37,206 nt of DNA from Rhodocyclaceae bacterium. Lineage in GTDB: Bacteria > Pseudomonadota > Gammaproteobacteria > Burkholderiales > Rhodocyclaceae. The stretch lies in contig JAQTZQ010000018.1 in the NCBI GenBank assembly GCA_028687645.1, positions 1 to 37,206 on the forward strand, given 5' to 3'. Of this stretch, positions 41 through 33,661 are shown one piece after another (the first letter of the stretch is position 1; every line of letters starts with the position of its first letter). A program made the translations under genes and the position numbers. Under the pieces are notes generated by a model, which saw only the letters and a program-made list of their open reading frames with translations, made no database searches and was not told the DNA's origin.

Positions 41-565
41 ATGTCCATCTCGCGCCGCCGCCTGCTTGCTACACTTCCTGCGTTAGCCTTGGCCGGCTGC
101 GGCTTCCAGTTGCGCGGCACGAAGAGCGGCACCTTGCCTTACAAAACGCTGTTCATCGCCCTGCCGGAAACCTCCGACGTTCGCATCTGGCTGGAGCGCT
201 ACGTCAACGCTGCCGGCAGCAGCGAAATCATCGACGATGCCAAGCGGGCCGATGCCACTTTCCAGCAGCTCAGCGAGAGTCGCGGCAAAACCATTCTCAG
301 CGTCAATGCGCAAGGCCGGGTGCGTGAATATCGCCTGCAATTGAGCTACACCTTCCGCCTGATCAATGCCAAAGGGCAGGTGCTGGTGCCGCCCAACGAG
401 ATTACGCTGTCGCGCGACATCACTTTCGACGACTCCAACGTGCTGGCCAAAGATCTGGAAGAAAGCCTGCTGTGGCGCGACATGAATAACGATCTGGTCA
501 ATCAGATCATGCGCCGCCTGAGCATCATCAAACCGCGCAACCCCGATCTCGACGAAGACGACTGA
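41..565 (+). CDS. lptE: LPS-assembly lipoprotein LptE
   Basis: This 174-residue lipoprotein has a twin-arginine-like basic start (SRRR), a hydrophobic stretch and a lipobox LAGC ending at Cys20, followed by GFQLRG, the LptE/RlpB signature. LptE plugs the LptD barrel in the outer membrane and helps deliver lipopolysaccharide to the cell surface. The gene starts 10 bases after the leuS stop. Its stop (563-565) overlaps the holA start by one base (TGATG), so the two are probably translationally coupled. Length and neighbours are normal for the family. Confidence 0.93.
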   Translation: MSISRRRLLATLPALALAGCGFQLRGTKSGTLPYKTLFIALPETSDVRIWLERYVNAAGSSEIIDDAKRADATFQQLSESRGKTILSVNAQGRVREYRLQLSYTFRLINAKGQVLVPPNEITLSRDITFDDSNVLAKDLEESLLWRDMNNDLVNQIMRRLSIIKPRNPDLDEDD

Positions 566-1593
566 TGCTGCTCAAGGGCGAGCAACTCGCCGCGCACCTC
601 GAACGCGACCTGCGCCCGCTCTATGTGCTGTATGGCGACGAGCCGCTGCTGGTCCTTGAAGCTGCCGACGCCATCCGCGCCAAAACACGCCAGCAGGGCT
701 ATAGCGAACGCGAAGTATTGACCGTGCTGCCGCATTTTGACTGGGGCCAACTGCTTTCTGCCGGCGGCAATATGTCGCTGTTCGGCGATAAAAAGCTGAT
801 CGATCTGCGCATTCCCACCGGCAAGGTCGGCAAGGAGGGTGGCGCCGCCTTGCAGCAGTGGTGCCAGCAATTATCGATGGATAACCTGCTGCTGATCACC
901 CTCCCGGAACTCGACTGGCGCGAGGAAAAGGCCGTCTGGTTCAGCGCGCTGGTCAATGCCGGCGTTGCGCTCAAGCTTAATGCCCCACCGCTCGCCGAGT
1001 TGCCGGGCTGGCTCGCCACGCGTCTGCGCCGCCAGCAACAAAGTGCCGATCTGGAGAGTCTCAAATTCGTTGCCGAGCGCGTCGAAGGCAATCTGCTCGC
1101 CGCTCATCAGGAAATCCAGAAGCTTGGCCTGCTCTACCCCGCCGGCCAGTTAAGTGCCTCGCAAATTCGTGAAGCGGTGCTTAACGTCGCCCGTTACGAT
1201 ATCGACAGTCTGCGCGAGGCTTTGCTCAGCTGCGATATCGCCCGCCTCGTACGCACGCTGAATGGCTTGATGCACGAAGGCGAAGCACCGCCGCTGATAC
1301 TATGGGCAATGAGCGAGGAAATCCGCGCGCTGACCGTGATACGCAGCGGCCTGGATGCCGGCAAGCCGATGGAGGCGCTGCTCAAGGACGCCAAGGTGTG
1401 GGGCCCGCGTGCGATGCCCATGAAAAAAGCCCTGCAAAGGCTGTCGACCGCAACACTTGAAGCGGCGCTGCAACATGCCGGCAAAATTGATCTGCTGGCC
1501 AAGGGGATTGGCCGGGGCAATGTATGGGAAGAGTTCCTGCGTCTGGGTTTACGCCTTTGCGCGCTAAAAACAGGCAGCGCCACCAAGGTGTAA
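565..1593 (+). CDS. holA: DNA polymerase III delta subunit
   Basis: A 342-residue protein that matches HolA in length and pattern: an N-terminal MLLKGEQLAAHL start, the YVLYGDEPLLVLEAAD segment of the degenerate AAA+ fold, and an all-helical C-terminal collar domain. Delta is the clamp-loader wrench that opens the beta sliding clamp. The start codon overlaps the lptE stop, and the leuS-lptE-holA order is the usual one. The next gene begins 27 bases later with its own strong ribosome binding site, so the operon may end here or run through. Confidence 0.93.
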   Translation: MLLKGEQLAAHLERDLRPLYVLYGDEPLLVLEAADAIRAKTRQQGYSEREVLTVLPHFDWGQLLSAGGNMSLFGDKKLIDLRIPTGKVGKEGGAALQQWCQQLSMDNLLLITLPELDWREEKAVWFSALVNAGVALKLNAPPLAELPGWLATRLRRQQQSADLESLKFVAERVEGNLLAAHQEIQKLGLLYPAGQLSASQIREAVLNVARYDIDSLREALLSCDIARLVRTLNGLMHEGEAPPLILWAMSEEIRALTVIRSGLDAGKPMEALLKDAKVWGPRAMPMKKALQRLSTATLEAALQHAGKIDLLAKGIGRGNVWEEFLRLGLRLCALKTGSATKV

Positions 1594-1620: not shown

Positions 1621-3795
1621 ATGAACCACCATTACTCACGCTGGGTATTTTGCTGGCTGGCTGCAGCCAGCCTGCCAACCGCCCAAGCCAATGACTCACT
1701 GGCACGCCTGCTGCCGCTTTCGCTCGAAGAGCTGATCGCGACGCCGGTGATCACCGCCTCGCGACGAGCCGAAGGGCGCGAGCAAACGCCATCGCACATC
1801 ATGGTCTATACCCGTGAGCAAATCCGTGACCGGCGCTATAAAAACCTGGCTGATCTGCTGGAAGACCTGCCCGGGGTCGATTTCCAGCGCGCCACCCGCT
1901 CCTCGCAATACAACAATTTTGTTTTTCAGGGTCACGTCAGCAACAACAAAATCCTGATTCTGCTCGATGGCGTGCGTATCGATCACCCGGCTGGCGGCAA
2001 AATCCCGGTGGCGGAAAATTTCTCGCTACATTTCGCCAAACAGGTTGAAGTGCTCTACGGCCCTGCTGCGGCGCTCTATGGCGCTGATGCCTTTGCTGGC
2101 GTCATCAACATCATCACCGACAAGCCGGGCGATGATCTGGCTGGCAAAATTTCTGCCGGCGTTGGCAATTTTGGCTCGCTGGAAGGTAACTTCCAGATTG
2201 GCGGCGCCCTCGGCGCCGGCTTTACACTAACGGCCAGCGCGCATTATCAGGAAAGCGACCGTGCCCCGCTCGACAAAACCTACCCGGCGTCTTACCCCAA
2301 GGTCAAAGCCGGTGGCGTTTCTGCTGCCCAGCGCGAAGATTACGTCGGCGACATGAGCAGCCAGAGCCAGTATTTTCGGCTCGACTACAAGGATGACCTG
2401 ACCATCGGCTTCTACCGCAACCGTTTCCGCAGCCTGAGCAGCACCGGCGACAACTCAGCATCAGCTTTTTATCTCTCGGATGTTTTTTGGGATACGACCA
2501 TCGATACCTGGTACGGCAAATACCGTTTCGAGTTGTCGCCATCGATCAAGGCTGAATTGGTGGTCGATTATTCGACCTACGAAGTGGACCCGCAATCGCG
2601 CTACATCAACAAGATCACCAATTTTCAGGATCATGGCTACGACTACGCCTACGCCCGTCGGCGCGGTATCGAGCAGAATCTGAGCTGGCAGGTCAATGCG
2701 CAGCACGCCCTCCTCGCCGGTATCGGTTTCAAGGATTACGCCGCGATTGAAACGCCAGACCTGCCCCAAGCCTACAACACCAGTCAGGGGCCGGACACCC
2801 AGGGCATGACTTACTCGAACACCACCATCCCGCTGCAAATATTCGATGCCAACTACCATAGCTGGTCGGGCTATTTGCAATGGCAAGCGCAATGGACCCC
2901 CAGCCTGTCGACCATGATCGGCGCGCGCGACGACTGGTACTCCACCTACGGCAACAGCCTTAACCCGCGCCTGGGCGTGACCTGGAAAGCGGCAGAAGGC
3001 AATTACCTGAAGCTGCTTTACGGCGAAGCCTTCCGCGCCCCGTCGCCAGAAGAAAGCTACAGCGCCTTCGGTAGCTTCGACGCAAAAGGCAAACCCAGCG
3101 GCCTGTTCCGCGCCCCCAATGAATCCCTGGAGCCAGAAAAATCCAGGACCCTCTCACTGACCTGGGACTGGCGCCCGTTGCGCCAGTTCAACCTGATCAC
3201 CAACGCCTACCAAACGCGGGTTGAGGGCGTCATCACCACCCGCGCCGATGCCACGCCAATTCAGTACATTCCCGGCGCCACGCTGACGCAGACCGAATCC
3301 AAGCAAAACAGCGGACAGGATGAGTACTACGGCATTGACCTGATTCCGCAATGGCAAACCCACCTCGGTGGCCCGTGGAATGCTGATTTGTGGGGTAGCT
3401 ACAGCTACGTCAATGGCCATTTCCGGGAAACGCTCAACGGCCCAAAGCTGGAGCTGATCAACATCGCCTCCAACAAGGTCAAACTCGGCGTTACCCTGCG
3501 CTACAAGGACTGGCTGACCATCACCCCGCGCCTGCAATGGATAGACGAGACCAGTACCGGCGCGGTAAACCGTGTGCAAAACGACCGCATCAAAAAGACA
3601 GACAGCTACACCACCGCCAGCCTGCACGTTGGCGTGCACAAGTTGGCCGGCGAGCATTTGTCGCTCTATCTGGATATATACAACCTCTTCGACGAGCGCT
3701 ACTACGCCGCCCATACCTCGTCGTCCAGTTTGGTCTTGCAGGCCGTACCGCAGCAGCCCCGAACTTTCATGGGCACCCTCGAATACCGCTTCTGA
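1621..3795 (+). CDS. TonB-dependent outer membrane receptor
   Basis: A 724-residue receptor preceded by a strong Shine-Dalgarno (GGAGGAG, about 6 bases before ATG). A signal peptide covers roughly residues 1-23 (cleavage near AQA-ND). The mature start LSLEELIATPVITASRR contains a TonB-box-like stretch. The plug domain follows (about 50-170; LPGVDFQ, LILLDGVRID, EVLYGPAAALYGADAFAGVINI). The C-terminal beta barrel ends in the expected aromatic residue (LEYRF). The substrate cannot be read from sequence. Receptors starting with LSLEEL-type motifs often sit beside YfiR-family and signalling genes, as here, so a role in sensing rather than bulk uptake is possible. The yfiR-like gene follows after 5 bases. 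Confidence 0.9.
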   Translation: MNHHYSRWVFCWLAAASLPTAQANDSLARLLPLSLEELIATPVITASRRAEGREQTPSHIMVYTREQIRDRRYKNLADLLEDLPGVDFQRATRSSQYNNFVFQGHVSNNKILILLDGVRIDHPAGGKIPVAENFSLHFAKQVEVLYGPAAALYGADAFAGVINIITDKPGDDLAGKISAGVGNFGSLEGNFQIGGALGAGFTLTASAHYQESDRAPLDKTYPASYPKVKAGGVSAAQREDYVGDMSSQSQYFRLDYKDDLTIGFYRNRFRSLSSTGDNSASAFYLSDVFWDTTIDTWYGKYRFELSPSIKAELVVDYSTYEVDPQSRYINKITNFQDHGYDYAYARRRGIEQNLSWQVNAQHALLAGIGFKDYAAIETPDLPQAYNTSQGPDTQGMTYSNTTIPLQIFDANYHSWSGYLQWQAQWTPSLSTMIGARDDWYSTYGNSLNPRLGVTWKAAEGNYLKLLYGEAFRAPSPEESYSAFGSFDAKGKPSGLFRAPNESLEPEKSRTLSLTWDWRPLRQFNLITNAYQTRVEGVITTRADATPIQYIPGATLTQTESKQNSGQDEYYGIDLIPQWQTHLGGPWNADLWGSYSYVNGHFRETLNGPKLELINIASNKVKLGVTLRYKDWLTITPRLQWIDETSTGAVNRVQNDRIKKTDSYTTASLHVGVHKLAGEHLSLYLDIYNLFDERYYAAHTSSSSLVLQAVPQQPRTFMGTLEYRF

Positions 3796-3800
3796 ACGGC

Positions 3801-4331
3801 ATGCAGCACTGGCGACACTCCCGCCGAACATGGGCACTCAGCGCCGCGCTCTGGCTGGCGCTCGCCTTGCCAGGCTGGAGCACGGCACAAGATCTGACCG
3901 AATACAGCGTCAAGGCGGTGCTTTATTATCGGCTGGCACAATTTGTCTATTGGCCGGAAAACAAGCCGCCACCGACGCCAATGCAGTTGTGTGTCGTCGG
4001 CACAAACCCGTTTGGCAACGCCCTGGCGCAAGTTGATCAAAGTAGCGGTAGCGCCCGGTTTGTGCTCGCCCCTGGTGAGATCAGCAGCTGTCAGATGATT
4101 TTCATCCCGCGCAGTGAATCTGAGCACCTCAAATTCTGGCTGGAGCGTGCCAGCAGCCAGCAACTGGTTACCGTTTCCGACATTCCCGGCTTTGCCCGGG
4201 CCGGCGGCATGATTGAATTGCCGCTGGAAGGCGAGCGGGTCAATATTGTCATCAACCGCCGCAGCGCAAAAAAAATGGGCTTTGGATTCAACGCCCAACT
4301 GCTCCGCCTGGCCCGGGTGATCGAACCATGA
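3801..4331 (+). CDS. YfiR-family (DUF4154) periplasmic protein
   Basis: A 176-residue exported protein. I chose ATG 3801 because it lies 5 bases after the receptor stop and opens a clear signal peptide (basic HWRHSRR, then [20 protein letters not shown]). The reading frame stays open upstream to 3537, but that part overlaps the receptor. The mature part has the YfiR pattern: [48 protein letters not shown] and a C-terminal [17 protein letters not shown]. In Pseudomonas, YfiR is a periplasmic repressor of the diguanylate cyclase YfiN. Two cysteines are visible (in QLCVV and SSCQM), which could form a redox-sensitive bond. It overlaps the following kinase gene (ATGA), so the kinase is the likely partner. 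Confidence 0.87.
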
Positions 4332-6934
4332 GCGCCGCCAAGCTGAGCAACCGTCTCCAGCCCAAGAGCATTCGTACCAAGCTCACGGCACTAACCCTGT
4401 CCTTTTTGCTGATCACCGTCGGGCTGGTCTTGCTGCTGGTTTATGTCCAGCAAAAATCCCTGCTGCAAACCCAGTGGGCGGCGTCGATTCGCGCCCAGGC
4501 ACGCTTGCTGGCCAATAACTCCGAAGCGGCACTGGCCTTTCTCGACCAGCGCGAAGAAACACGTCTGTTAGCCTCTTTGGCGACCAATCCGGCGATCGTC
4601 TCCGGGCGGATTTTGCTCCCCGATGGCAAAACCTTCGCCCGCTACCAACGCGATCCTGCAATACCGTTTGCCCTGCCCGTCAAGGAGACTCCTGACGGTT
4701 TCCATGCCGATCACCTGCTGATCCGCGAACCAATCCACCTCCCCGGACAAAACCAGCCGCTGGGTCAAGTGGAATTACTTGCCTCACTTGAGCAGTATCA
4801 CCAAACCATGCGCAGCACCCTGACTGAAACCAGTTTGCTGCTACTGCTGGCCCTGGTCGGCGCCATGCTGGTCACGCGCTATGTCGTCCGCAGCATCACC
4901 AAACCGATTGAACAACTTGATGCGCTGGCGCAAAAAGTCTCCCGTGAGGGATCGGTCGATGATCGCGTCGACATTGACAGCCATGACGAGCTGGGCAATC
5001 TTGGCCGGGGTTTTAACCGGATGCTGGATAGTCTCAAAGCCCGAGATGCCGAACTGGCGGGTTATCACGAGTCGCTTGAAAGCATGGTCACTGAGCGCAC
5101 CCGTGAATTGCAGGCAGCCATTGCCGAAGCCCGCACGGCCAATCAGGCCAAATCGGATTTTCTCGCCCGCATGAGTCACGAAATCCGCACCCCGCTGAAC
5201 GCTGTTACCGGCCTCAGCCGTCTGGTGCTCGACACAACATTGACAGCGCAGCAACGGGAATATCTGGAGCAGGTGCTGCAGTCCTCGAACGCCTTGCTCG
5301 AAATCATCAATAACATCCTGGATTACTCAAAAACCGAGGCCGGTCATCTGGCGCTGGAGACAAAAGCTTTTCCGCTTGCCGATGTTTTTCTTTCACTCGA
5401 AGCCCTCTTTGCCGCCAAGGCCCGCGCCCTGGGCATTACGCTCAGCATGCAGGCCGACGCCAGGCTCCCGCCCCAACTGGAAGGCGACGCCCTGCGTCTT
5501 GGTCAGGTACTGATCAACCTGGTTGGCAATGCGCTCAAATTCACCAGCGCCGGCGAAGTTACCGTTCATGCACGACAAATCGGCACCTTGCCGAATGGCC
5601 GAATCAATGTTGAATTTACCGTCCGCGATACCGGCATGGGCATCCCGGCAGATCAGCAAGATGGTCTTTTCGCGCCGTTTGCCCAAGCCGACAGCAGCAT
5701 CACCCGGCGTTTCGGCGGCACCGGTCTGGGGCTGGCGATTTGTCGCCAACTGGTTCACTTGATGGGCGGGCAGATCAAAGTCAGCAGCGCACCGGGTGCC
5801 GGCAGCACCTTTACCTTCAACAGTCTTTTTGCTGTCGCCGCAGACACCCCGGCGCAGCCAAAGCTGACGGTCAACGCCAAAAATGGCACGAATTTTCCGC
5901 GCTGGGCCGGCGAGCGCATTCTGGTGGTTGAAGACATTGCCATCAACCGAACCATCGCAGTCGCCCTGCTGCAAAAAGTGGGCTTCAGCGTCGCCGTCGC
6001 CATTCATGGGCAAGAAGCCCTGGACAAACTTGAGCAGGAAAATTTTGCCCTGGTTCTGATGGACATCCAGATGCCGGTCATGGATGGTCTCGCCGCCACC
6101 CGAGCCATCCGCCAGATTCCGCACCTGCGCGAGTTGCCGATTATCGCCATGACCGCCCACGTCACGGCGGAGGATCAGCGACAAAGCAGCGCAGCCGGGA
6201 TGAACGCGCACCTGACCAAGCCCATCGTCCCAAAAATACTTTACGACACCCTGGCGCTCTGGCTCCCACCGATGGCCGCAGCCCCAGTCGAACCCAACAA
6301 CCATCCCGCGACACCGGATCAGCCGCTGCCCGAGCTACCTGGCATTGATGCCGCCGCCGGCCTGGTTTTACACATGAACCGTCAGGATTTTTACCTCAAG
6401 TCACTGCACGCCTTCCGCCAGGACTTTGCCCAAACCACGCAGCTCATACGCGAGGCACTGGCCGCGAGCCAGCCACAAGAAGCACGCCGTCTGGCGCACT
6501 CCCTCAAATCCGTCGCCGGCTCACTCGGTGCCACCGCGCTGGCAGAACAGGCCCGCCGCCTTGAACATGCGCTGGCCAGCAACAGCACCAATAGCGGGTT
6601 GCTTGACGAGATAGACAAGACACTCAGTGAACTAATTGCGGGCTTGCGCCAGATTCCCCAGCCAGCGGTCGCCGAAATCAGCGTGAAGACCGCCAATCTT
6701 GATGACCTCAAGACGCTTATGGCGACGCTTGAAGACCTGCTGCGCCAGGCCGATGCGCGCGCCGACAGCACCTTTATGCAACTGCATCAGGCGATCAGCG
6801 CCGACCCGGCCTTGAAAGAGCGTTGTGCCGCGCCGCTTGGCAAAATCTGCCGTCTGATTGAAGATGTCGAATATGCTGAGGCATTGATCGTACTCGGCGC
6901 ATTGCGCGAGTGTCTCAAGGAACCCAATTCATGA
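4328..6934 (+). CDS. Hybrid histidine kinase: YfiN-like sensor, HAMP, HisKA, HATPase, REC, Hpt
   Basis: An 868-residue membrane hybrid kinase. TM1 is about 19-41 and TM2 about 169-187, bracketing a periplasmic domain of about 125 residues. This resembles the CHASE8-type input of YfiN ([21 protein letters not shown], then [14 protein letters not shown]). A HAMP domain (about 186-240) and coiled coil follow. HisKA has the phospho-accepting His284 in [10 protein letters not shown]. The ATPase domain has N-box [11 protein letters not shown] and G boxes DTGMGIP and [10 protein letters not shown] receiver domain has Asp579 ([11 protein letters not shown]). A C-terminal Hpt domain has His724 ([10 protein letters not shown]). 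This is a complete internal phosphorelay ending in Hpt, ready to pass phosphate to a separate receiver. It overlaps both neighbours by ATGA, and the next gene encodes such a receiver. Confidence 0.92.
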
Positions 6935-7830
6935 ACCAGAAACAAACCGTCCTGGTCGTTGATGACGAAAAGCAGAATCGTGACCGACTGACAGAATTGC
7001 TACAGCCGGAAAACCGCGTCGTACTCGCCAAAAACGGCCAGCAGGCGCTTGACCGGGTGGCCGATCAACATCCCGACCTGATCCTGCTTGACATCATGAT
7101 GCCGGATATCGACGGCCATCAAGTCATTCAGATTCTCAAGCACGACGATGCCACGCGGCAGATTCCGGTAATCTTCATTTCAGCCCTCGACTCCCCCGCC
7201 GACGAAGAACGCGGCCTTGATCTCGGTGCGGTCGATTACATTACCAAACCTTTTCACCCCTCCATCGTGCGCAAGCGGGTGCGCAACCATCTGCTGTCGG
7301 TGCACCACCGCAACTTGCTGGAAGAACTGGCGCTGATCGACAGCCTGACCGAAATTGCCAACCGGCGGCGCTACAACGAAAAGCTGGAAAACGAGTGGCG
7401 CCGTGCCGCTCGCGCCAATCAAGCACTTTCACTGGCGATCATAGACGTGGATTATTTCAAGGCATACAACGATCACCGAGGCCACGCAGATGGGGATGTC
7501 GTGCTGCGCCAGATCGCTCAAACCATTAGTCGCCTGGCACGCCGACCCGGCGACCTTGCGGCGCGTTATGGCGGCGAGGAATTTGTCTTGCTGCTGCCCG
7601 GCACCGATGCGCCCGCGGCTAATCGAATAGCTCAGGAAATCCTGGATGCCGTTATTGCGTTACAAATACCGCACCCCGCTTCGCCGGTTTCAAATTGGGT
7701 GACTGTCAGCGTTGGTGGGCGCACCGTCTTTCCGAATGGCGCCGATATTGATCCGGAATTTTTCAAATCAACTGACTCAGCGCTATATCTGGCCAAAGCC
7801 AGTGGCCGCAACCGTGTTGTTTGGCGTTAG
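6931..7830 (+). CDS. Response regulator with diguanylate cyclase (REC-GGDEF)
   Basis: A 299-residue protein starting at ATG 6931, which overlaps the kinase stop (ATGA). The REC domain (about 5-120) has acidic pair DDE near residues 11-13, phospho-acceptor Asp54 ([11 protein letters not shown]) and the conserved Lys in YITKPF. The GGDEF domain has the active-site motif GGEEF at 214-218 and a likely product-inhibition site RPGD placed five residues upstream. It should therefore make c-di-GMP and be feedback-controlled. The layout is PleD/WspR-like with one receiver. Position and overlap make it the likely acceptor of phosphate from the kinase Hpt domain. Its stop overlaps by 4 bases the convergent small gene at 7827. 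Confidence 0.92.
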
Positions 7831-13199: not shown

Positions 13200-13796
13200 A
13201 TGCAAACCGCCCTTGCCATCCTCACCGCTTACCTGCTCGGCTCAGTGCCTTTTGCGATGATTTCGTCGAAGCTTTTCGGGCTGGCTGATCCGCGTACCTA
13301 TGGTTCAGGCAACCCGGGCGCCACTAACGTACTGCGCAGCGGCAACAAAAAAGCGGCCTTGTTTACGCTGATCGGCGATGGTTTCAAAGGCTGGCTGGCA
13401 GTCTTCATTGCCCAGCGTCTGGGCTTTTCAGCAACCGTCGTTGGACTGATGGCGCTGGCCGTTTTTCTTGGTCACCTTTACCCGATTTTCCTCAAATTCA
13501 AAGGCGGCAAGGGTGTCGCCACGGCAGCAGGAGTTTTGCTCGCCATTGATCCAGTGCTCGGCCTTGCCGTCGCTGCCACCTGGCTGCTGGTCGCATATAT
13601 TTCTCGCTACTCATCATTGGCGGCCGTCCTGGCGGCCGGGTTGGCGCCGTTTTACTCGGCCCTGATGCATGGCGTCGGCGGGCAGATTGTCGTTGTCAGC
13701 TTCATTGCCATGGCGCTGGTGGGCAAGCATTGGCAGAACATCCAACGCCTGGTTGCTGGCCAGGAATCCAGAATCGGCGGCAAGAAAAAACGCTGA
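13200..13796 (+). CDS. plsY: Glycerol-3-phosphate acyltransferase PlsY
   Basis: A 198-residue integral membrane enzyme that acylates glycerol-3-phosphate using acyl-phosphate, the first step of phospholipid synthesis. The three conserved loops are visible: GSVPFA with YGSGNPGATNVLRSGN, GHLYPIFLKFKGGKGVATAAG, and a C-terminal GKHWQNIQRL segment. About five hydrophobic membrane segments are seen. A charged GGKKKR tail ends the protein. It is divergent from folB. Confidence 0.95.
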   Translation: MQTALAILTAYLLGSVPFAMISSKLFGLADPRTYGSGNPGATNVLRSGNKKAALFTLIGDGFKGWLAVFIAQRLGFSATVVGLMALAVFLGHLYPIFLKFKGGKGVATAAGVLLAIDPVLGLAVAATWLLVAYISRYSSLAAVLAAGLAPFYSALMHGVGGQIVVVSFIAMALVGKHWQNIQRLVAGQESRIGGKKKR

Positions 13797-13819
13797 ATCT
13801 GCAATTTAAAGGAATTAAA

Positions 13820-14647
13820 GTGACGCGCTTCAATCTCCTGAATTTTTGCCTGAGCCTGCTGCTCATGCTACCCATCAGCCTGCGGGCCGAGGATCCGGTT
13901 TTTCATATTGGCGTTGCACCACACACCAGCGCCCGCGTCATTCTCGAGATGTACCAGCCGCTGCGTAAGGCGCTGGAAAAATCACTGGGCCAGCCAGTGG
14001 TGATCGAAACCGCGCCTGACTTTACCGAATTTGGCCGCCGCGCATTGCGCCAGGCCTACGACATCGCCATCACCACCGGCCATCAAGCGCGGATTTACGA
14101 AGTTGATGGTGGCTATTTGCCGCTAATCACTTATCAAGCTGAATTCAAGGCTGTCGCACTGGTGGCCAAAAATGGCCCCTACCGCAGCCCGGCGGATCTC
14201 AAGGGAACGACACCACTTGGGCTGTCGCCATCATCACTGGTTACCTTGTGGGGCCTGCACTGGTTGCGCAATAACCATCTCGGTGACCTGCCGATCAAAT
14301 ATGTTTCAGCCGCTGACAGCGTCAGCAATCAGGTTTTGGCGGGGGCGGCCAGTGTCGCTTTCACCTCACTGGCTAATTTCCAGAAGCTGCCAGCCGAGCA
14401 GCAGCAAGCCCTGAGCATTCTCGCCGAAAGCGAGCCCATGGCGGGTCGTGTGTATATGCTCAACCAGCGCCGCAGTAGCCAATTCAAGACGATTGAGCGC
14501 GCCATTGAGGATTTTGGCCGGTCGTCGGCAGGCCAGCGCTATCTCAGCCAAAACAAGCTGGAAGCCTATCGCCCACTGCGCCCGGGAGAGCTTGAGTCAA
14601 TGGAAGCTTACGCCAGCGAAATCCGCCCATTGCTCAAATCCAGATGA
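13820..14647 (+). CDS. PhnD-like periplasmic substrate-binding protein
   Basis: A 275-residue exported protein starting at GTG 13820, 7 bases after AAAGGA. The frame is open further upstream, but that part lies in plsY and lacks a signal peptide. The signal peptide [20 protein letters not shown] is followed by a type II binding fold of the phosphate/phosphonate PhnD family: [56 protein letters not shown]. No ABC permease or ATPase is near. The stop overlaps the start of a hybrid kinase (ATGA). It therefore probably serves as a ligand sensor for the kinase rather than a transport component. The ligand is unknown; phosphonates, phosphate or other oxyanions are possible. Confidence 0.88.
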
Positions 14648-16575
14648 AATTTACCTCGCCCCTGCGCTCAGTTCGGGGACGTCTGCTTATTGTTGCAGTG
14701 CTGGTTGAGGCACTGATGCTGAGCTTGCTGGTTGCCAACAGCCTGCGCCTGCTGACCACGCACATGGTCAGTCAGGCACGCAGCCACGCCGAGCAGATTT
14801 CTCCGATCCTGATTGCCGCCATTGTTGCCCCGCTGGCGCAGCGCGATTTCGCCACCGTACAAGCCGTGCTCGACGAAAGCCGGGCAGTCAAAGGCATTGA
14901 CTATCTGGTGCTGACCGAAATCGGTGGTCAGCGCATTGCCGCCAGCGGCTGGCCAGAGAACCGGGTTCTGCCACAGCCGGATCGACAATTCGAGCTGTTC
15001 GGCAGCCAGGGAGAGAAACCGCGCCACGATGTCATGGTGCCCGTCGTGGCTTACGGCCAGCCGATGGGGCAACTGCATTTCGGCCTCGATTTATCGCAAA
15101 TTCGCGCGGCGCACGGCGATCTATTTAATCAGGGCGTCCTCATCGCCTTGCTCGAAATCGTCTTTTCTGCTGGCCTGATGGGCCTGCTGGGCTATTTCCT
15201 GACCCGCCACCTCAGCGCCCTGACGCGTGCCAGCCGAGCGGTCGCTGCCGGCAACCTGACACCACCGCCAGTGGCCGAGGGGGATGATGATATCGGTCAA
15301 CTCGGTGCCGCCTTCAATGCCATGTCCCGCGCTGTCAGCGAGCGGGTTCAGGAACTGACCGCCGCCCGCGATGAAGAAAAACGCCTGGCGCAGGCTGCCG
15401 AAGCCGGAGCACAAGCCAAAACAGCCTTTTTGGCGACTATGAGCCACGAAATCAGAACGCCGATGAACGGCATTCTTGGCATGACCGAACTCACCCTGGC
15501 TACCGACCTGACCGAGGAACAGCGCGAGAATCTCACCTGGGTCAAGGTCTCCGGCGAGAGCCTGATGCGTATCCTGAATGACATTCTCGACTTCTCCAAA
15601 ATTGATGCCGGGCAACTCAACCTGGAACATATCCCTTTCCAGCTACCGGAAGTTCTCGACAGCGTGGTGGGCATTTACTCGGTCGATGCTGCCAATCATG
15701 GCCTGAAACTGAGCTGGCAAGCAAAAAATGCCATTCCGACGCACGTTTGCGGCGACCCGGTTCGCCTGCGGCAAATTATCTCCAACCTGATCTCCAATGC
15801 CATCAAATTTACCCGGCAGGGAGAAATCAGGATTTCGGTGCTGCACAATAAAAGCCCCAAACCGAATCACGCCAGCCTGGTTTTTACCGTTGCAGATACT
15901 GGCATCGGTATTTCCGACGACAAACTGGAAGTCATTTTCCAGCCATTCGTTCAGGCTGAGAGCTCCACCACACGCCAATATGGGGGTACCGGGCTGGGTT
16001 TGGCCATTGTTAATCGCCTGGTTGAATTACTCGGCGGCCATCTTTGGGTCGAGAGCGAGATCGGCAAAGGGACACAGTTCCATTTTTCCATCGATATCGT
16101 GCTGGCAGAGCAGGCGCCGCTTGCGCAGCCAGTTGAAAAATCAATCCCGGCGTTGAGCGGCAGCGAAGAAAAAACCATCCTGCTGGTTGAAGACACGCCG
16201 GTGAATCAAAAAGTCGCCCTTAAACTGCTGGAAAAGGCAGGTTACAAGGCTATTCTGGCTGAAAATGGGGCGCTTGCGGTCGACCTGGTTTTTGGGCAGA
16301 AATTTGATCTCATTCTGATGGACATCCAGATGCCAGTGATGAATGGCCTGGAAGCAACACACCGGATTCGTCAATACGAAGCCGAGCAATCCAGCCCGCG
16401 CACGCCGATCATCGCCATGACCGCCAACGCCATGAGCACTGACCGCGACGAGTGTCTGGCCAGCGGCATGGACGATTTCATTGCCAAGCCCTTCCGTGCC
16501 GATGACATGCTGGCAACCATCCAGCGCCACCTCCAAGCCTTGAGCGACAATAGTCTAAGCAAATCAACAAAATAG
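14644..16575 (+). CDS. Hybrid histidine kinase with periplasmic sensor, HAMP, HisKA, HATPase and REC
   Basis: A 643-residue kinase. TM1 is about 13-33 and TM2 about 163-186, bounding a periplasmic domain of about 130 residues with a PAS/Cache-like pattern ([18 protein letters not shown]). HAMP covers about 187-240. The HisKA phospho-His is His268 ([11 protein letters not shown]). The ATPase domain has [15 protein letters not shown] and [10 protein letters not shown]. The REC domain has Asp560 ([11 protein letters not shown]). There is no Hpt domain and no response regulator alongside, so the downstream partner must be encoded elsewhere. The start codon overlaps the stop of the PhnD-like gene, pointing to a binding-protein/kinase pair. 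It is not coupled to katG, which starts about 200 bases later. Confidence 0.92.
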
Positions 16576-22781: not shown

Positions 22782-22837
22782 ATCATGCCGAATTGTAGTA
22801 AAATCTGAGGTTGTCCGAATTTCAAGGAACCGCATTC

Positions 22838-24841
22838 ATGGTCAAGGCAAACGAAACCGCCACGGAAGCCCCGGCAGAAGCCGCCAAAGAAGCAGCCCCC
22901 AAACCGCGCTTGAGCAAGGCCAAGGAGCGTGCTGCTGAAAAGGCGATACTTCAGGGCGCGATGGCTGAAAAGCCAGAACCCCTGGATGCCGAGGCACGCA
23001 AAACGCGGCTCAAGGCACTCATCAAGCTAGGCAAGGATCGGGGCTACCTGACGTACGCCGAAATTAACGATCACTTGCCCGATGATGTGGTCGACGCCGA
23101 GAGTATCGAAGCCATCATCTCCACCTTCAGCGACATGAGCATCAAGGTCTTCGACGAAGCACCTGCCGCCGAAGAAATGCTGATGTCCGACACTGCTGCT
23201 GCCGCCAACGACGATGACGATGTCGAAGAGCAAGCCGAGCAGGCGCTGTCCACCGTTGACTCCGAGTTCGGTCGCACGACCGACCCGGTGCGTATGTACA
23301 TGCGCGAAATGGGCACAGTGGAACTACTCACGCGCGAGGGCGAAATTGAGATCGCCAAACGCATCGAAGACGGCCTTAAGCACATGGTGCAAGCCATCTC
23401 TGCCTGCCCGACGACCATTACCGAGATTCTGGAACTCGTTGCCAAAGTTGAAAGCGAAGAAATCCGCATCGACGAGTTGGTCGATGGCGTCATTGATCCC
23501 AATGCCGTTGAAGCTGCCCCCATCGCCGGCTTGCCGGAAGAGCTCAGCGACGACGAAGAAGACGAAGATGAAGACGGTGAAGATGACGGTGGCGCCGGCG
23601 CCGTATCTGCCTCGCTCTTGCAGCTCAAAACCGAGGCTCTTGAGCGCTTTGCCATCATTAAAGACATCCACGCCAAGATGCAAAAAGCGCTGCAGAGCAA
23701 AGGCCCGCATGACAAGGCCTACCTCAAGCTGCAGCAGCAAATTTCTGACGAATTGCTCAATATCCGTTTCACCTCTCGCTCCATCGAGCGCCTGTGCGAC
23801 AGCGTTCGCGCCATGGTCGACAAAGTGCGTGGTTCGGAAAGAAAAATCCAGCAAATCTGTGTTGACCGCGTCAAAATGCCGCGCCCTCACTTCATCGCCT
23901 CCTTCCCCGGTAACGAAGTCAATCTTGAATGGTCCGATGGTGAAATTGCTGCCGCGCCCAAAACCTACGTCGCCATCCTGACCCGCAACGGTCCGGCGAT
24001 CAAGGAAGAACAAAAGAAGCTGCTCGCTCTGCAAGAGCACATCGGCATCCCGCTTAGCGATCTGAAGCTGATCAACAAGCGGATGTCCACCGGCGAAGCC
24101 AAAGCCCGTCGCGCCAAGCGCGAAATGACCGAAGCAAACCTCCGCCTGGTTATCTCGATTGCCAAAAAATACACCAACCGTGGCCTGCAATTCCTTGATT
24201 TGATTCAGGAAGGTAACATTGGCCTGATGAAGGCGGTTGATAAATTCGAATATCGTCGCGGCTACAAATTCTCGACCTACGCCACCTGGTGGATTCGTCA
24301 GGCGATTACCCGCTCGATTGCCGACCAGGCACGGACCATCCGTATTCCGGTACACATGATCGAAACGATCAACAAAATGAACCGGATCAGTCGCCAGATT
24401 CTGCAGGAAACGGGTGCCGAACCCGATCCCGCGACGCTGGCCAAAAAAATGGAGATGCCGGAAGACAAGATTCGCAAGATCATGAAAATTTCCAAGGAGC
24501 CCATCTCCATGGAAACCCCGATCGGCGACGACGACGACTCCCATCTCGGCGACTTCATCGAAGACTCCGGCACTTTGGCGCCTGCCGATGCTGCGATGTA
24601 TTCCAGCCTGCGTGGCGTCACCAAGGAAATCCTCGACTCACTCACCACTCGCGAAGCCAAGGTCTTGCGTATGCGTTTCGGCATCGAAATGAACACCGAT
24701 CACACGCTGGAAGAAGTCGGCAAACAATTCGACGTCACCCGCGAGCGCATCCGCCAGATTGAAGCCAAAGCGCTACGTAAACTGCGTCACCCAAGCCGCT
24801 CCGACAAACTACGCAGCTTCGTCGACACTAACGGCAGCTAA
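22838..24841 (+). CDS. rpoD: RNA polymerase primary sigma factor (sigma-70)
   Basis: A 667-residue housekeeping sigma factor. ATG 22838 has AAGGA nine bases upstream; an in-frame TTG at 22811 is less likely. A lysine/alanine-rich leader precedes region 1.1 ([21 protein letters not shown]). Region 1.2 is [12 protein letters not shown] non-conserved segment contains a strongly acidic run (residues about 234-250). Regions 2.3-2.4 contain [17 protein letters not shown], region 3 [11 protein letters not shown], and region 4.2 the helix-turn-helix [20 protein letters not shown]. The long spacing after region 1.2 is normal for proteobacterial RpoD. A CAU tRNA follows six bases after the stop. Confidence 0.97.
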
Positions 24842-30878: not shown

Positions 30879-32336
30879 TTGTTTAGCCGAGTCCTGCACA
30901 AAAACTTGAAGCCATCCTCAATCTTCCTCATTTCACTGCTCAGTCTATTGGGTGTATTCCAACTGGGCTCTCTGTCTGCTGTGCGTGCAGGCGAGCAGCT
31001 TGCGCCAACTATCGAGTTTTCTACCGCAGAGAAGGCCTACATCGAGAAAACTGGCGGCATCCGTATGTGTGTCGATCCCGACTGGGCGCCGTTCGAGCGA
31101 ATCAATGAAAAGGGTCAGCATGAGGGGATTTCCGCAGATCTGATCCAACTCGTGGCGCAACGGGTTGGCCTGAAAATCACCCTTTACCCGGTCAAAAACT
31201 GGGATGAAAGTCTGGCTGCCTCGAAAGCGGGGCATTGCGAGATAATGAGTTTTCTTAACCAGACGCCAGCGCGGGATCAGTGGCTGATATTCACCGCACC
31301 TATGTTCTACGACCCCAACATCATTATCACCCGCGAAGAACACCCCTACATTGGCGACATCCGTGGCTTGCACGGCGAGACTGTTGCCCTGCCTCGCGGA
31401 ACCATGGTTGAAGAGCGGATTCGCAAGACTTACCCAAACCTGAATGTCATCCCGACCGGCAGCGAGCCCGAATCAGTCGCACTGGTCTCGGAGCGTAAGG
31501 CAGACATGACAATTCGTTCGCTCATTGTCGCCGCGTATGCGATCAAGAAGGAAGGTCTTTTCAACCTGAAGATTTCAGGACAAATTCCTGAATTCACAAA
31601 CGAACTGCGAATCGGTGTCCTCAAAGAAGAAGTTCTCCTGCGCGACATCCTCGACAAGGGCGTGAAAACGCTCAGCGCACAGGAACGCGAGGCCGTTTCC
31701 AACCGGCATGTATCAATCAAGGTTGAGCAGGGTGTCGATTACAGCTTGGCAGCAAAAGTGCTCGCCGGAGCTCTTCTTGTTTTACTGATCGCGACCTACT
31801 GGAACCGGAAGTTGAGCCGATTGAACAAGGAACTTAAGCGTCTTTCGGTCACTGACAAACTGACAGGCTTGTTCAACCGCCTGAAAATTGACATTGCGCT
31901 TGAAAGCGAGATCGCGCGCACCCAGCGTTTTGGCCAGCCATTCAGCCTGATCATTCTCGATATCGACCATTTTAAAAACGTTAATGACACCTTCGGCCAC
32001 CAGGCTGGAGATCAAGCTTTGATCGCTGTTGCCTCGATTCTCACTAAAAATACGCGCGAAGTTGACATCGTCGGACGTTGGGGTGGTGAAGAATTTATTG
32101 TGATTTGCCCACAAACGGATGAGGCTGGAATCCTCAATCTGGCTGAAGGGCTGCGGCAAAAGGTTGAGGCTTACGATTTTCCGGTGGCCGGAAAAAAAAC
32201 GGCGAGTTTTGGTGTCTCCACCTACTGCAACGGCGATCAACCCCGGGAAATTCTTCAGCGCGCTGACGAAGCACTCTATGTCGCCAAAAACAACGGTCGC
32301 AATCGGGTGGAAGTACTGCAACGCAAGCTTCAATGA
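30879..32336 (+). CDS. Diguanylate cyclase with periplasmic SBP_bac_3 sensor domain
   Basis: A 485-residue membrane diguanylate cyclase. After a signal sequence (about 13-37) a family 3 solute-binding domain runs to about 290 (GIRMCVDPDWAPFERINEKG; CEIMSFLNQTPARDQWLIFTAP). A membrane helix lies at about 294-313. The GGDEF domain has active-site GGEEF at 402-406 and an intact inhibition site REVD five residues upstream. It should make c-di-GMP in response to an amino-acid-like ligand. No ATG or GTG start exists after the in-frame stop at 30843. TTG 30879 is the longest option and TTG 30906 an alternative; neither has a clear ribosome site. The stop overlaps the porin start (ATGA). Confidence 0.88.
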   Translation: MFSRVLHKNLKPSSIFLISLLSLLGVFQLGSLSAVRAGEQLAPTIEFSTAEKAYIEKTGGIRMCVDPDWAPFERINEKGQHEGISADLIQLVAQRVGLKITLYPVKNWDESLAASKAGHCEIMSFLNQTPARDQWLIFTAPMFYDPNIIITREEHPYIGDIRGLHGETVALPRGTMVEERIRKTYPNLNVIPTGSEPESVALVSERKADMTIRSLIVAAYAIKKEGLFNLKISGQIPEFTNELRIGVLKEEVLLRDILDKGVKTLSAQEREAVSNRHVSIKVEQGVDYSLAAKVLAGALLVLLIATYWNRKLSRLNKELKRLSVTDKLTGLFNRLKIDIALESEIARTQRFGQPFSLIILDIDHFKNVNDTFGHQAGDQALIAVASILTKNTREVDIVGRWGGEEFIVICPQTDEAGILNLAEGLRQKVEAYDFPVAGKKTASFGVSTYCNGDQPREILQRADEALYVAKNNGRNRVEVLQRKLQ

Positions 32337-33661
32337 GGCACATTTGGCAAAAGGCTTTTTTGTTTGTCGCCGCATCTGGTGCGTTATCGCCAGCGTATGG
32401 GAGCGACGTGGTAGCCAGTGGCGATTCAAATACAGGCCACATTTTTGGCTATATCAAAGCGATGTATGTCGCTGATGACAAAAAAGGGGGGCGACCAAAC
32501 CAGAGTACACCTGGCTTTGGTGGCAAGCTCGGGGGTGAAACCTCAGAATACGCGGGTTTCAAGCTAAAAGGCGCTTGGTATGTCACAACCGATCTCGGTT
32601 TGCGCCACGAAGACCCGAGAAAAACTGATGCTTACATGTTTGATCTGGACAAAACACCGTATTCCCTGCTCGGTGAAATGCAGCTCAGCGGAAAACTCGG
32701 CAAAACTGAACTGATCTTCGGGCGCCAAGAATTTTTATCACCGATCATCAATACCTACGAATACCGGATTATCCCGAATCTTTTTGAAGCCTACACACTG
32801 ATCAATCGCGATATTCCTGAAACGACTTTAACACTGGCCTACGTCGCCAAAATGTCGGGGCTTGATGGATTAGTCACTTTTTCAGAATTTCGCAGCATGT
32901 CACAACAGACATACACCTCGCTGCAAGTAGCGCCAGATGGCTCGCTGGACAATCAAGGCGGCGAGACAGTGGATATCTCAAAGATTGTCGGCCATCGAGG
33001 CGTTTTGGCTACCGGTATTGAATTTGGCAAGAATCCTCAGCTTCGGCTGTGGAATTACTTTAGTGCTGACACACTCAACACGGTGTATTTTGATGCCCGA
33101 TTGAAGGCCCGACTCAACCAGGATTTTTCTTCGACAATTGAAGGCCAGGCCTATCGGGTTTTTGCGCTAGGCGGCTTTAGGGACTATCTGGCCCAGCGCG
33201 GCTTGAATGCGAGCTATGGCCTTTTGGGTGTCAAAGGTACGCTGGCGCATCAACCGAGCGGTATCAGCATCGGCCTCGCGCTCAACCACTTTACCGGCAA
33301 CAAGAATACTGTCACTGCTTTTGGAAACTGGGGTGGCTACCCTGAATTTGTCACCATGCCCTATCTGTACGCCGAGAGTAAGGGCGCCTCGGCGATTGTC
33401 GGCAGTTACTTGTCAAGGGCAACCATCCTCTTCGACCTTGGCGTCTTTGGTTTCTCAGAGCAAAGTGTTCTCTTGGGCCATGCCCATATCAATATTGACG
33501 AAAGCATCCAGTCTGATAGCGATATCAAGGTAAACACCTTGCTTTACCGTGCTCAGATATCGTCCAAATTATCAGCTCGTGTGGCCATCGATGCCAGGCA
33601 CTCAAAAAATTTGCGCTACGACAACGAGTTTATCGCGCTCGCCTTACGCTACGATTTTTGA
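32333..33661 (+). CDS. Outer membrane porin, OprD-like
   Basis: A 442-residue exported barrel protein. The signal peptide is about residues 1-23 (KAFLFVAASGALSPAYG). The mature sequence alternates in beta-strand fashion, with long strands such as HIFGYIKAMYVADD, LLGEMQLSGKLGKTELIFGRQ and a terminal strand FIALALRYDF ending in Phe. The N-terminal pattern (GYIKAMY, then ETSEYAGFKLKGAWYVT and the GRQ motif) resembles the OprD/OprD-like specific porins. The start overlaps the diguanylate cyclase stop, so the two products are made together. The porin could admit the ligand sensed by the cyclase. The substrate is unknown. Confidence 0.78.
   Translation: MRHIWQKAFLFVAASGALSPAYGSDVVASGDSNTGHIFGYIKAMYVADDKKGGRPNQSTPGFGGKLGGETSEYAGFKLKGAWYVTTDLGLRHEDPRKTDAYMFDLDKTPYSLLGEMQLSGKLGKTELIFGRQEFLSPIINTYEYRIIPNLFEAYTLINRDIPETTLTLAYVAKMSGLDGLVTFSEFRSMSQQTYTSLQVAPDGSLDNQGGETVDISKIVGHRGVLATGIEFGKNPQLRLWNYFSADTLNTVYFDARLKARLNQDFSSTIEGQAYRVFALGGFRDYLAQRGLNASYGLLGVKGTLAHQPSGISIGLALNHFTGNKNTVTAFGNWGGYPEFVTMPYLYAESKGASAIVGSYLSRATILFDLGVFGFSEQSVLLGHAHINIDESIQSDSDIKVNTLLYRAQISSKLSARVAIDARHSKNLRYDNEFIALALRYDF

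Follow-up and report, generated by a model that had tools for sequence, protein, structure and literature searches.

In Pseudomonas, the periplasmic protein YfiR acts on the periplasmic domain of YfiN, and YfiB sequesters YfiR. The AAVVF motif on the YfiN sensor was proposed as the YfiR binding site, and Yfi outputs are described as modular, with kinase outputs in divergent systems, including that of Thauera sp. MZ1T, almost all of which have no YfiB (Malone 2012; excerpts of PMC3375315). The word 'TonB' is absent from the main text of the latter paper. NCBIfam names a trio consisting of a TonB-dependent receptor (TBDR; TOL_0244, NF053590), a YfiR-like protein (TOL_0243, NF053591) and a YfiR-associated sensor kinase (NF053592), the first two models carrying Thalassolituus names; the pairing of these proteins is therefore already recognized by curators. 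Among the matches listed from the open-licence literature, no paper announces the TBDR–YfiR pair as a signalling unit, which is weak evidence of absence. Here we analyse a window of 37,206 nucleotides (the whole of the DNA stretch under study; contig JAQTZQ010000018.1, assembly GCA_028687645.1, from a Rhodocyclaceae bacterium) that carries genes for a TBDR, YfiR, a hybrid histidine kinase and a REC-GGDEF protein. We lean, with modest confidence, towards reading these four proteins as a relay that runs from the cell surface to cyclic di-GMP (c-di-GMP).

The four signalling genes, all on the + strand, form a real cassette according to their open reading frames and Pfam domains (Table 1), YfiR being matched as DUF4154. 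When the junctions were re-read letter by letter, the TBDR stop and the YfiR start were found 5 bases apart, and ATGA overlaps were found at both the YfiR/kinase and the kinase/REC-GGDEF junctions. The initial annotation, made from the letters alone, had described just such a tightly packed four-gene cassette, and gene calls, junctions and domains bear it out. It had left unnamed the CHASE8 sensor domain and the C-terminal Hpt domain of the kinase, both of which matter. All domains required for a phosphorelay-controlled diguanylate cyclase are present in the kinase and the REC-GGDEF protein (Pfam), and phosphotransfer from the one to the other is the predicted step. The translated REC-GGDEF protein has a GGEEF site preceded at five residues by RPGD, which we take to be its active-site and I-site-like motifs, respectively.

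To place the cassette, we compared three sets of loci. The family set holds 110 YfiR (PF13689) places in 73 of 150 same-family genomes searched, all covered by 107 fetched regions and the window. The named set holds 36 loci, partly from the same organisms as the family set (e.g. L197 and G062). The phylum set holds 60 places hand-picked for spread from the 123 outside the window's genome, with YfiR present in 94 of 398 genomes. Adjacency was scored uniformly, as a TBDR gene directly upstream on the same strand and a CHASE8-HAMP gene directly downstream. A strict regular expression tried as the anchor for the TBDR plug missed most receptors, and a plug profile was used instead.

A TBDR gene lies directly upstream of YfiR at 81/110 family, 27/36 named and 25/60 phylum places, and a CHASE8 gene directly downstream at 93/110, 34/36 and 48/60, respectively; both neighbours are present at 72/110, 27/36 and 21/60. 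The window's genome (4.28 Mb) contains 15 plug matches and three YfiR matches, and all three YfiRs are directly behind a TBDR. Given this and the family count, we reject the possibility that the TBDR is a chance neighbour of YfiR. Pairwise distances of TBDR, YfiR and CHASE8 correlate at 0.63–0.73 (calculated over 56 family loci out of 72 complete ones, the rest having matches that were too short), and TBDR paralogues stay paired with their YfiR in 25 of 28 tests, as do CHASE8 paralogues. Seen from the receptor side, 65 TOL_0244-family matches (E 1e-80, 398 genomes) have YfiR directly downstream in 35 cases, within 6 kb in 16 more and not nearby in 14, and YfiR is also present in 53 of the 56 genomes that have a receptor of this kind; the window's receptor is absent from these 65, and the C111 receptor of its genome is present.

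The nearest named relatives are Dechloromonas, Azonexus and other Rhodocyclales/Betaproteobacteria. All four genes occur at 12 of 13 Dechloromonas/Azonexus-type loci (L188–L199 and L202), the 13th (L193) starting at a contig end, and ATGA is found at the YfiR-kinase junction in 10 of these 12 and at the kinase-cyclase junction in 10. Three other genomes of the same genus differ: G062 has the four genes, G147 has the TBDR, YfiR and kinase genes and, at some distance, a GGDEF gene, and G112 has no such locus. The initial annotation had staked its proposal on conservation of the gene order in relatives; this holds for the first three genes, and the REC-GGDEF gene is much less conserved. At one locus (L078, 3719-8542, − strand), TBDR and CHASE8-kinase matches fall in one stop-free frame with YfiR between them in another frame, possibly through an assembly error.

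The AAxxF contact phenylalanine, present in the window kinase as AALAF, is found in all 173 aligned YfiR-linked CHASE8 domains (two others of the 175 found were too short and were set aside) and in seven further CHASE8 domains in YfiR loci outside the adjacency rule. In six related sensor domains whose genes lie elsewhere than beside YfiR (two of these genes belong to the window's genome), that position is occupied by R, Q, Y, S, V or T. This conservation is the best evidence on the question and suggests that the kinase is subject to YfiR in the same way as YfiN. Control of the kinase by YfiR, as the initial annotation proposed, thus gains indirect support from the motif and from natural YfiR-kinase fusions. 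Such fusions with a histidine kinase occur at four phylum loci (L249 5037-6839, L250 4980-6926, L254 3661-5724 and L282 3734-5713), two of which have a TBDR nearby. A sequence search of the PDB with the kinase sensor gave no credible match, and a fold search returned WalK and chemoreceptor models followed by PAS/Cache-like sensors, with weak E-values that lend mild support at most. Elsewhere in the window, a phosphonate-type periplasmic binding protein (13730-14644) is followed by a HAMP hybrid kinase (14644-16572) as a second sensor pair; the sensor of this kinase resembles CHASE8 and has Q at the position of the contact phenylalanine.

To look for YfiB-like OmpA genes, we searched every region with a profile built from six YfiBs, and in 11 genomes we also used the Pfam OmpA model. 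Such genes follow YfiR at 18 of 206 places (6/110 family, 0/36 named, 12/60 phylum); none of the 18 has a TBDR nearby, and all 18 have a CHASE8-GGDEF protein, i.e. classic YfiN. The profile found no YfiB at the 81 TBDR-linked family loci, and the Pfam model found no OmpA on the contigs of the three YfiRs of the window's genome. We built an unrooted tree from the YfiRs of the family and phylum sets, 166 of 170 after four short ones were dropped. The 18 OmpA-linked YfiRs group together in a single clade that has 21 rows and 100/100 support, and one TBDR/OmpA change is all that the tree requires. On these grounds, we conclude that the TBDR occupies the place of YfiB. The exclusion is clean but amounts to one switch on an unrooted tree; the initial annotation's statement that an outer-membrane receptor replaces YfiB is therefore sound as a description of position and not as history. 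In the set of genomes under comparison, coupling to a receptor is the more frequent arrangement, and the textbook Yfi system makes up a single branch. Neither an upstream TBDR nor OmpA accompanies 37 CHASE8-linked places, some of which are at contig ends or have a TBDR elsewhere nearby, and eight family CHASE8-GGDEF loci have no TBDR, two of them also no OmpA.

NCBIfam families divide along the same line, as far as one OmpA-linked and six TBDR-linked YfiRs were scanned. The OmpA-linked YfiR passes the sequest_YfiR model with 128.6 bits against a cut-off of 85, which the window YfiR (22 bits) does not reach. Of the six single-domain TBDR-linked YfiRs, L216, L222 and L267 pass the TOL_0243 model, and L197, L033 and L034 fall short.

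The best PDB sequence matches of the window receptor are BtuB and CirA, with receptor residue 41 aligned to residue 7 of the BtuB chain. Because of this alignment, a segment of the form LxxLxLxxL is placed ahead of residues 41-48 (TPVITASR), which we take to be the TonB box. The pattern is present at the N-terminus of 84/103 YfiR-linked family and phylum receptors (those of 106 with a readable N-terminus), in 26/26 named ones (likewise of 27) and in 0/41 unlinked receptors; the latter were not drawn at random, and comprise 10 of the 12 other receptors of the window's genome plus 31 frames with a plug, taken from the 30 plug loci that scored best in ten genomes without YfiR. LxxLxLxxL was composed after inspection of linked family sequences, the phylum set coming later, and it therefore describes the linked receptors and does not test a prior guess. 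It replaced a looser and shorter pattern that matched 67/78 linked and 5/41 unlinked receptors; when an acidic residue is also demanded (LxxLxLExL, E or D), 72/103 linked, 18/26 named and 0/41 unlinked receptors match. A hydrophobic YfiR dock at the receptor N-terminus is a plausible candidate, because in Pseudomonas YfiR has a hydrophobic pocket into which a YfiB residue inserts, and the surface that carries this pocket is thought to bind YfiN as well (excerpts of PMC4655355).

In the relay that we favour, the TBDR would bind an extracellular ligand, and its state (ligand, TonB engagement) would determine if YfiR is retained at the outer membrane or remains free, capture perhaps occurring through the short hydrophobic segment before the TonB box. 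Free YfiR would dock on the kinase CHASE8 domain at AALAF and restrain the kinase. With YfiR captured, the phosphoryl relay would proceed from HisKA to REC to Hpt to the REC domain of the GGDEF protein, and c-di-GMP would be made. The receptor-YfiR contact, the polarity, the ligand and the phosphotransfer partner are steps that we infer.

Several observations weigh against this relay. There is no TBDR directly upstream at 29/110 family and 35/60 phylum YfiR places and no CHASE8 gene directly downstream at 17/110 family places; nine TBDR-linked family places have no adjacent CHASE8 gene, and a TBDR-YfiR pair of the window's own genome (L034, 6551-9088, contig C115) has none in the 13.5 kb read. 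LxxLxLxxL is missing in 19/103 linked receptors, eight of them among the 25 phylum-wide ones (it is held in 17/25), and common ancestry of one receptor subfamily could account for the pattern. An N-terminal dock is also without direct precedent, because Pseudomonas YfiB binds YfiR through its OmpA domain, and the N-terminal part of YfiB obstructs the site (excerpts of PMC4655355). Since the TBDR/OmpA change was a single evolutionary switch, the locus counts for YfiB exclusivity are not independent. Finally, REC-GGDEF directly follows the kinase at 21/54 family, 20/26 named and 1/15 phylum loci. The fourth gene is therefore a local feature kept mainly near the window, and c-di-GMP is not the general output.

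The output side varies: TBDR-YfiR pairs stand before a kinase at 54 family loci and before GGDEF at 17, and the YfiR tree requires 12 changes between these outputs (from few columns, with many open forks). Two more phylum kinase loci are followed by GGDEF without REC. In a myxococcotal locus (L222, 6800-11574), TBDR and YfiR precede a CHASE8-HAMP-MCP protein, the same input wired to a chemoreceptor.

A wider reading is possible, although we consider it less likely than not. It proposes that a large class of TBDRs may signal by an undescribed route, in which the N-terminal LxxLxLxxL segment would capture YfiR according to plug state, without STN domain or anti-sigma factor. The receptor-gated YfiR-CHASE8 unit would be the ground form of Yfi, wired to kinases, cyclases or chemoreceptors, and YfiBNR would be one branch derived from it, with a lipoprotein in the role once played by the receptor.

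An unlikely but living alternative is that the TBDR imports a ligand, which YfiR, resembling part of a substrate-binding protein, would bind in the periplasm and report to the kinase; no contact between receptor and YfiR would then be needed. A predicted model of the window YfiR (mean predicted local distance difference test score, pLDDT, of 86) matched YfiR chains in the top 15 places of a PDB fold search (4yn7, E 1.8e-7). The next matches were substrate-binding proteins (8wgl/5z6v from Rhodothermus marinus, and 3lft with Trp), and it is this ranking that keeps the import alternative alive. Alkane import by TOL_0244 has likewise been proposed (excerpts of PMC6304351). Import would leave unexplained, however, the N-terminal segment of the receptor and why the TBDR and YfiB, a protein held to work by capture of YfiR (excerpts of PMC4655355), exclude each other.

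We consider it improbable that the input works as proposed and the kinase serves chiefly another regulator, with REC-GGDEF an accessory and c-di-GMP not the chief output. The low family and phylum counts for the fourth gene (21/54 and 1/15 of TBDR-YfiR-kinase loci) speak for this, whereas its retention at 12/13 Dechloromonas/Azonexus-type loci, with a kinase/cyclase ATGA overlap in 10 of those 12, speaks against it.

The window YfiR has one cysteine pair (C64, C97) and is without the second pair of P. aeruginosa YfiR. The two cysteines of the first pair are kept in 139 and 140 of 152 TBDR-linked YfiRs and are common to OmpA-linked YfiRs; two further cysteines, each present in 18/18 OmpA-linked YfiRs, are missing from the TBDR-linked ones. 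The least probable explanation is that the kinase uses YfiR chiefly to sense redox state or folding, and that the TBDR serves uptake and is merely produced in the same circumstances: it draws on the conserved pair and on a redox role suggested for Pseudomonas YfiR, but the second pair, reported essential for folding, is the absent one (excerpts of PMC4655355), no reason is given for a TBDR-YfiR pairing kept across paralogues, and the scanned flanking genes (LptE, DNA polymerase III delta, aldehyde dehydrogenase family, acyl-CoA dehydrogenase) are no uptake genes.

Table 1. Cassette genes, domains and motifs, with positions in the window
Feature	Position	Strand	Basis
TonB-dependent receptor, plug and barrel	1621..3795	+	Pfam Plug 1.6e-19, barrel 4.6e-35
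N-terminal segment LARLLPLSLEEL, residues 27-38, between likely signal peptide and TonB box; candidate YfiR dock	1699..1734	+	LxxLxLxxL pattern
TonB-box-like TPVITASR, residues 41-48	1741..1764	+	BtuB N-terminal chain aligns here
YfiR/DUF4154 periplasmic protein	3801..4331	+	Pfam 8.7e-32
Hybrid histidine kinase, CHASE8-HAMP-HisKA-HATPase_c-REC-Hpt	4328..6934	+	Pfam; ATGA overlap with YfiR
CHASE8 periplasmic sensor domain, residues 50-150	4475..4777	+	Pfam PF17152 1.5e-12; genome search 2.7e-13
AALAF, counterpart of the YfiN AAVVF YfiR-contact motif	4526..4540	+	F in 173/173 linked CHASE8 domains
Kinase receiver domain	5918..6247	+	Pfam PF00072 4.4e-24
Hpt phosphotransfer domain	6404..6637	+	Pfam PF01627 3.1e-12
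Response-regulator diguanylate cyclase, REC-GGDEF	6931..7830	+	Pfam GGDEF 7.8e-45, REC 1.5e-27

Directly 5' of the cassette, on the same strand, are LptE and DNA polymerase III delta genes (window 41-1593; Pfam), the second of them separated from the receptor start by 27 bases, and their transcript may extend into the cassette. On the 3' side, the next genes encode an aldehyde dehydrogenase family protein and then an acyl-CoA dehydrogenase (Pfam). Scans for promoters (no promoter-like sites) and terminators (nine terminator-like sites, against 8.2 in shuffles) were uninformative. Further along the window (30879-33658), an SBP_bac_3 periplasmic domain is fused to GGDEF, and the next gene matches OprD porins just under the Pfam cut-off.

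If the relay exists, TonB receptors, usually taken as uptake proteins, would be tied to c-di-GMP control. TBDR transducers of the FecA/FpvA type likewise signal from the outer membrane to the periplasm, and use an STN domain and an anti-sigma factor. Unlike these, the window receptor showed only Plug and barrel in the Pfam scan, with no STN signalling domain found, and no extracytoplasmic function (ECF) sigma or anti-sigma gene is among the scanned neighbours (LptE, DNA polymerase III delta, the cassette itself, and the aldehyde and acyl-CoA dehydrogenase genes). The sigma-70 gene at window 22811-24838 encodes a full housekeeping-type factor and lies far from the cassette. Another TBDR with a signalling role is OmpS of Alcanivorax dieselolei, said to detect alkanes and trigger chemotaxis; TOL_0244 is 40.3% similar to OmpS, described there as an alkane detector, and rises sevenfold on n-C28 alkane relative to Tween 80 (excerpts of PMC6304351). 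The NCBIfam trio comprises the same three adjacent kinds of protein as the window, whose proteins score 83.9 of 645, 75.9 of 125 and 124 of 194 bits, all under the cut-offs, and whose cassette adds a fourth gene.

With YfiBNR (TpbB) of P. aeruginosa and its E. coli and Yersinia (Hms) counterparts, the cassette shares a YfiR-family protein, a CHASE8/PAS-HAMP sensor, the AAxxF (AAVVF-type) motif and an outer-membrane partner encoded alongside. It differs in having a TBDR and no OmpA-like lipoprotein YfiB in the operon, in carrying CHASE8-HAMP on a hybrid kinase with GGDEF on a separate response regulator, whereas classic YfiN fuses CHASE8/PAS-HAMP to GGDEF, and in a YfiR that is without the second cysteine pair and is not a YfiR in the strict sense. 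Similar in design are the divergent Yfi systems, in which YfiR occurs with a YfiN-type sensor that is joined to a histidine kinase, a hybrid kinase in the case of Thauera sp. MZ1T; most of them have no YfiB, and their outer-membrane partner was left open (Malone 2012; excerpts of PMC3375315). In the window, that place is taken by a TBDR, so that the missing partner can be named, sits at a set position in the operon and has a candidate segment for the contact. With the partner named and placed, the question of what such systems sense becomes testable, as a search for the ligand of the receptor.

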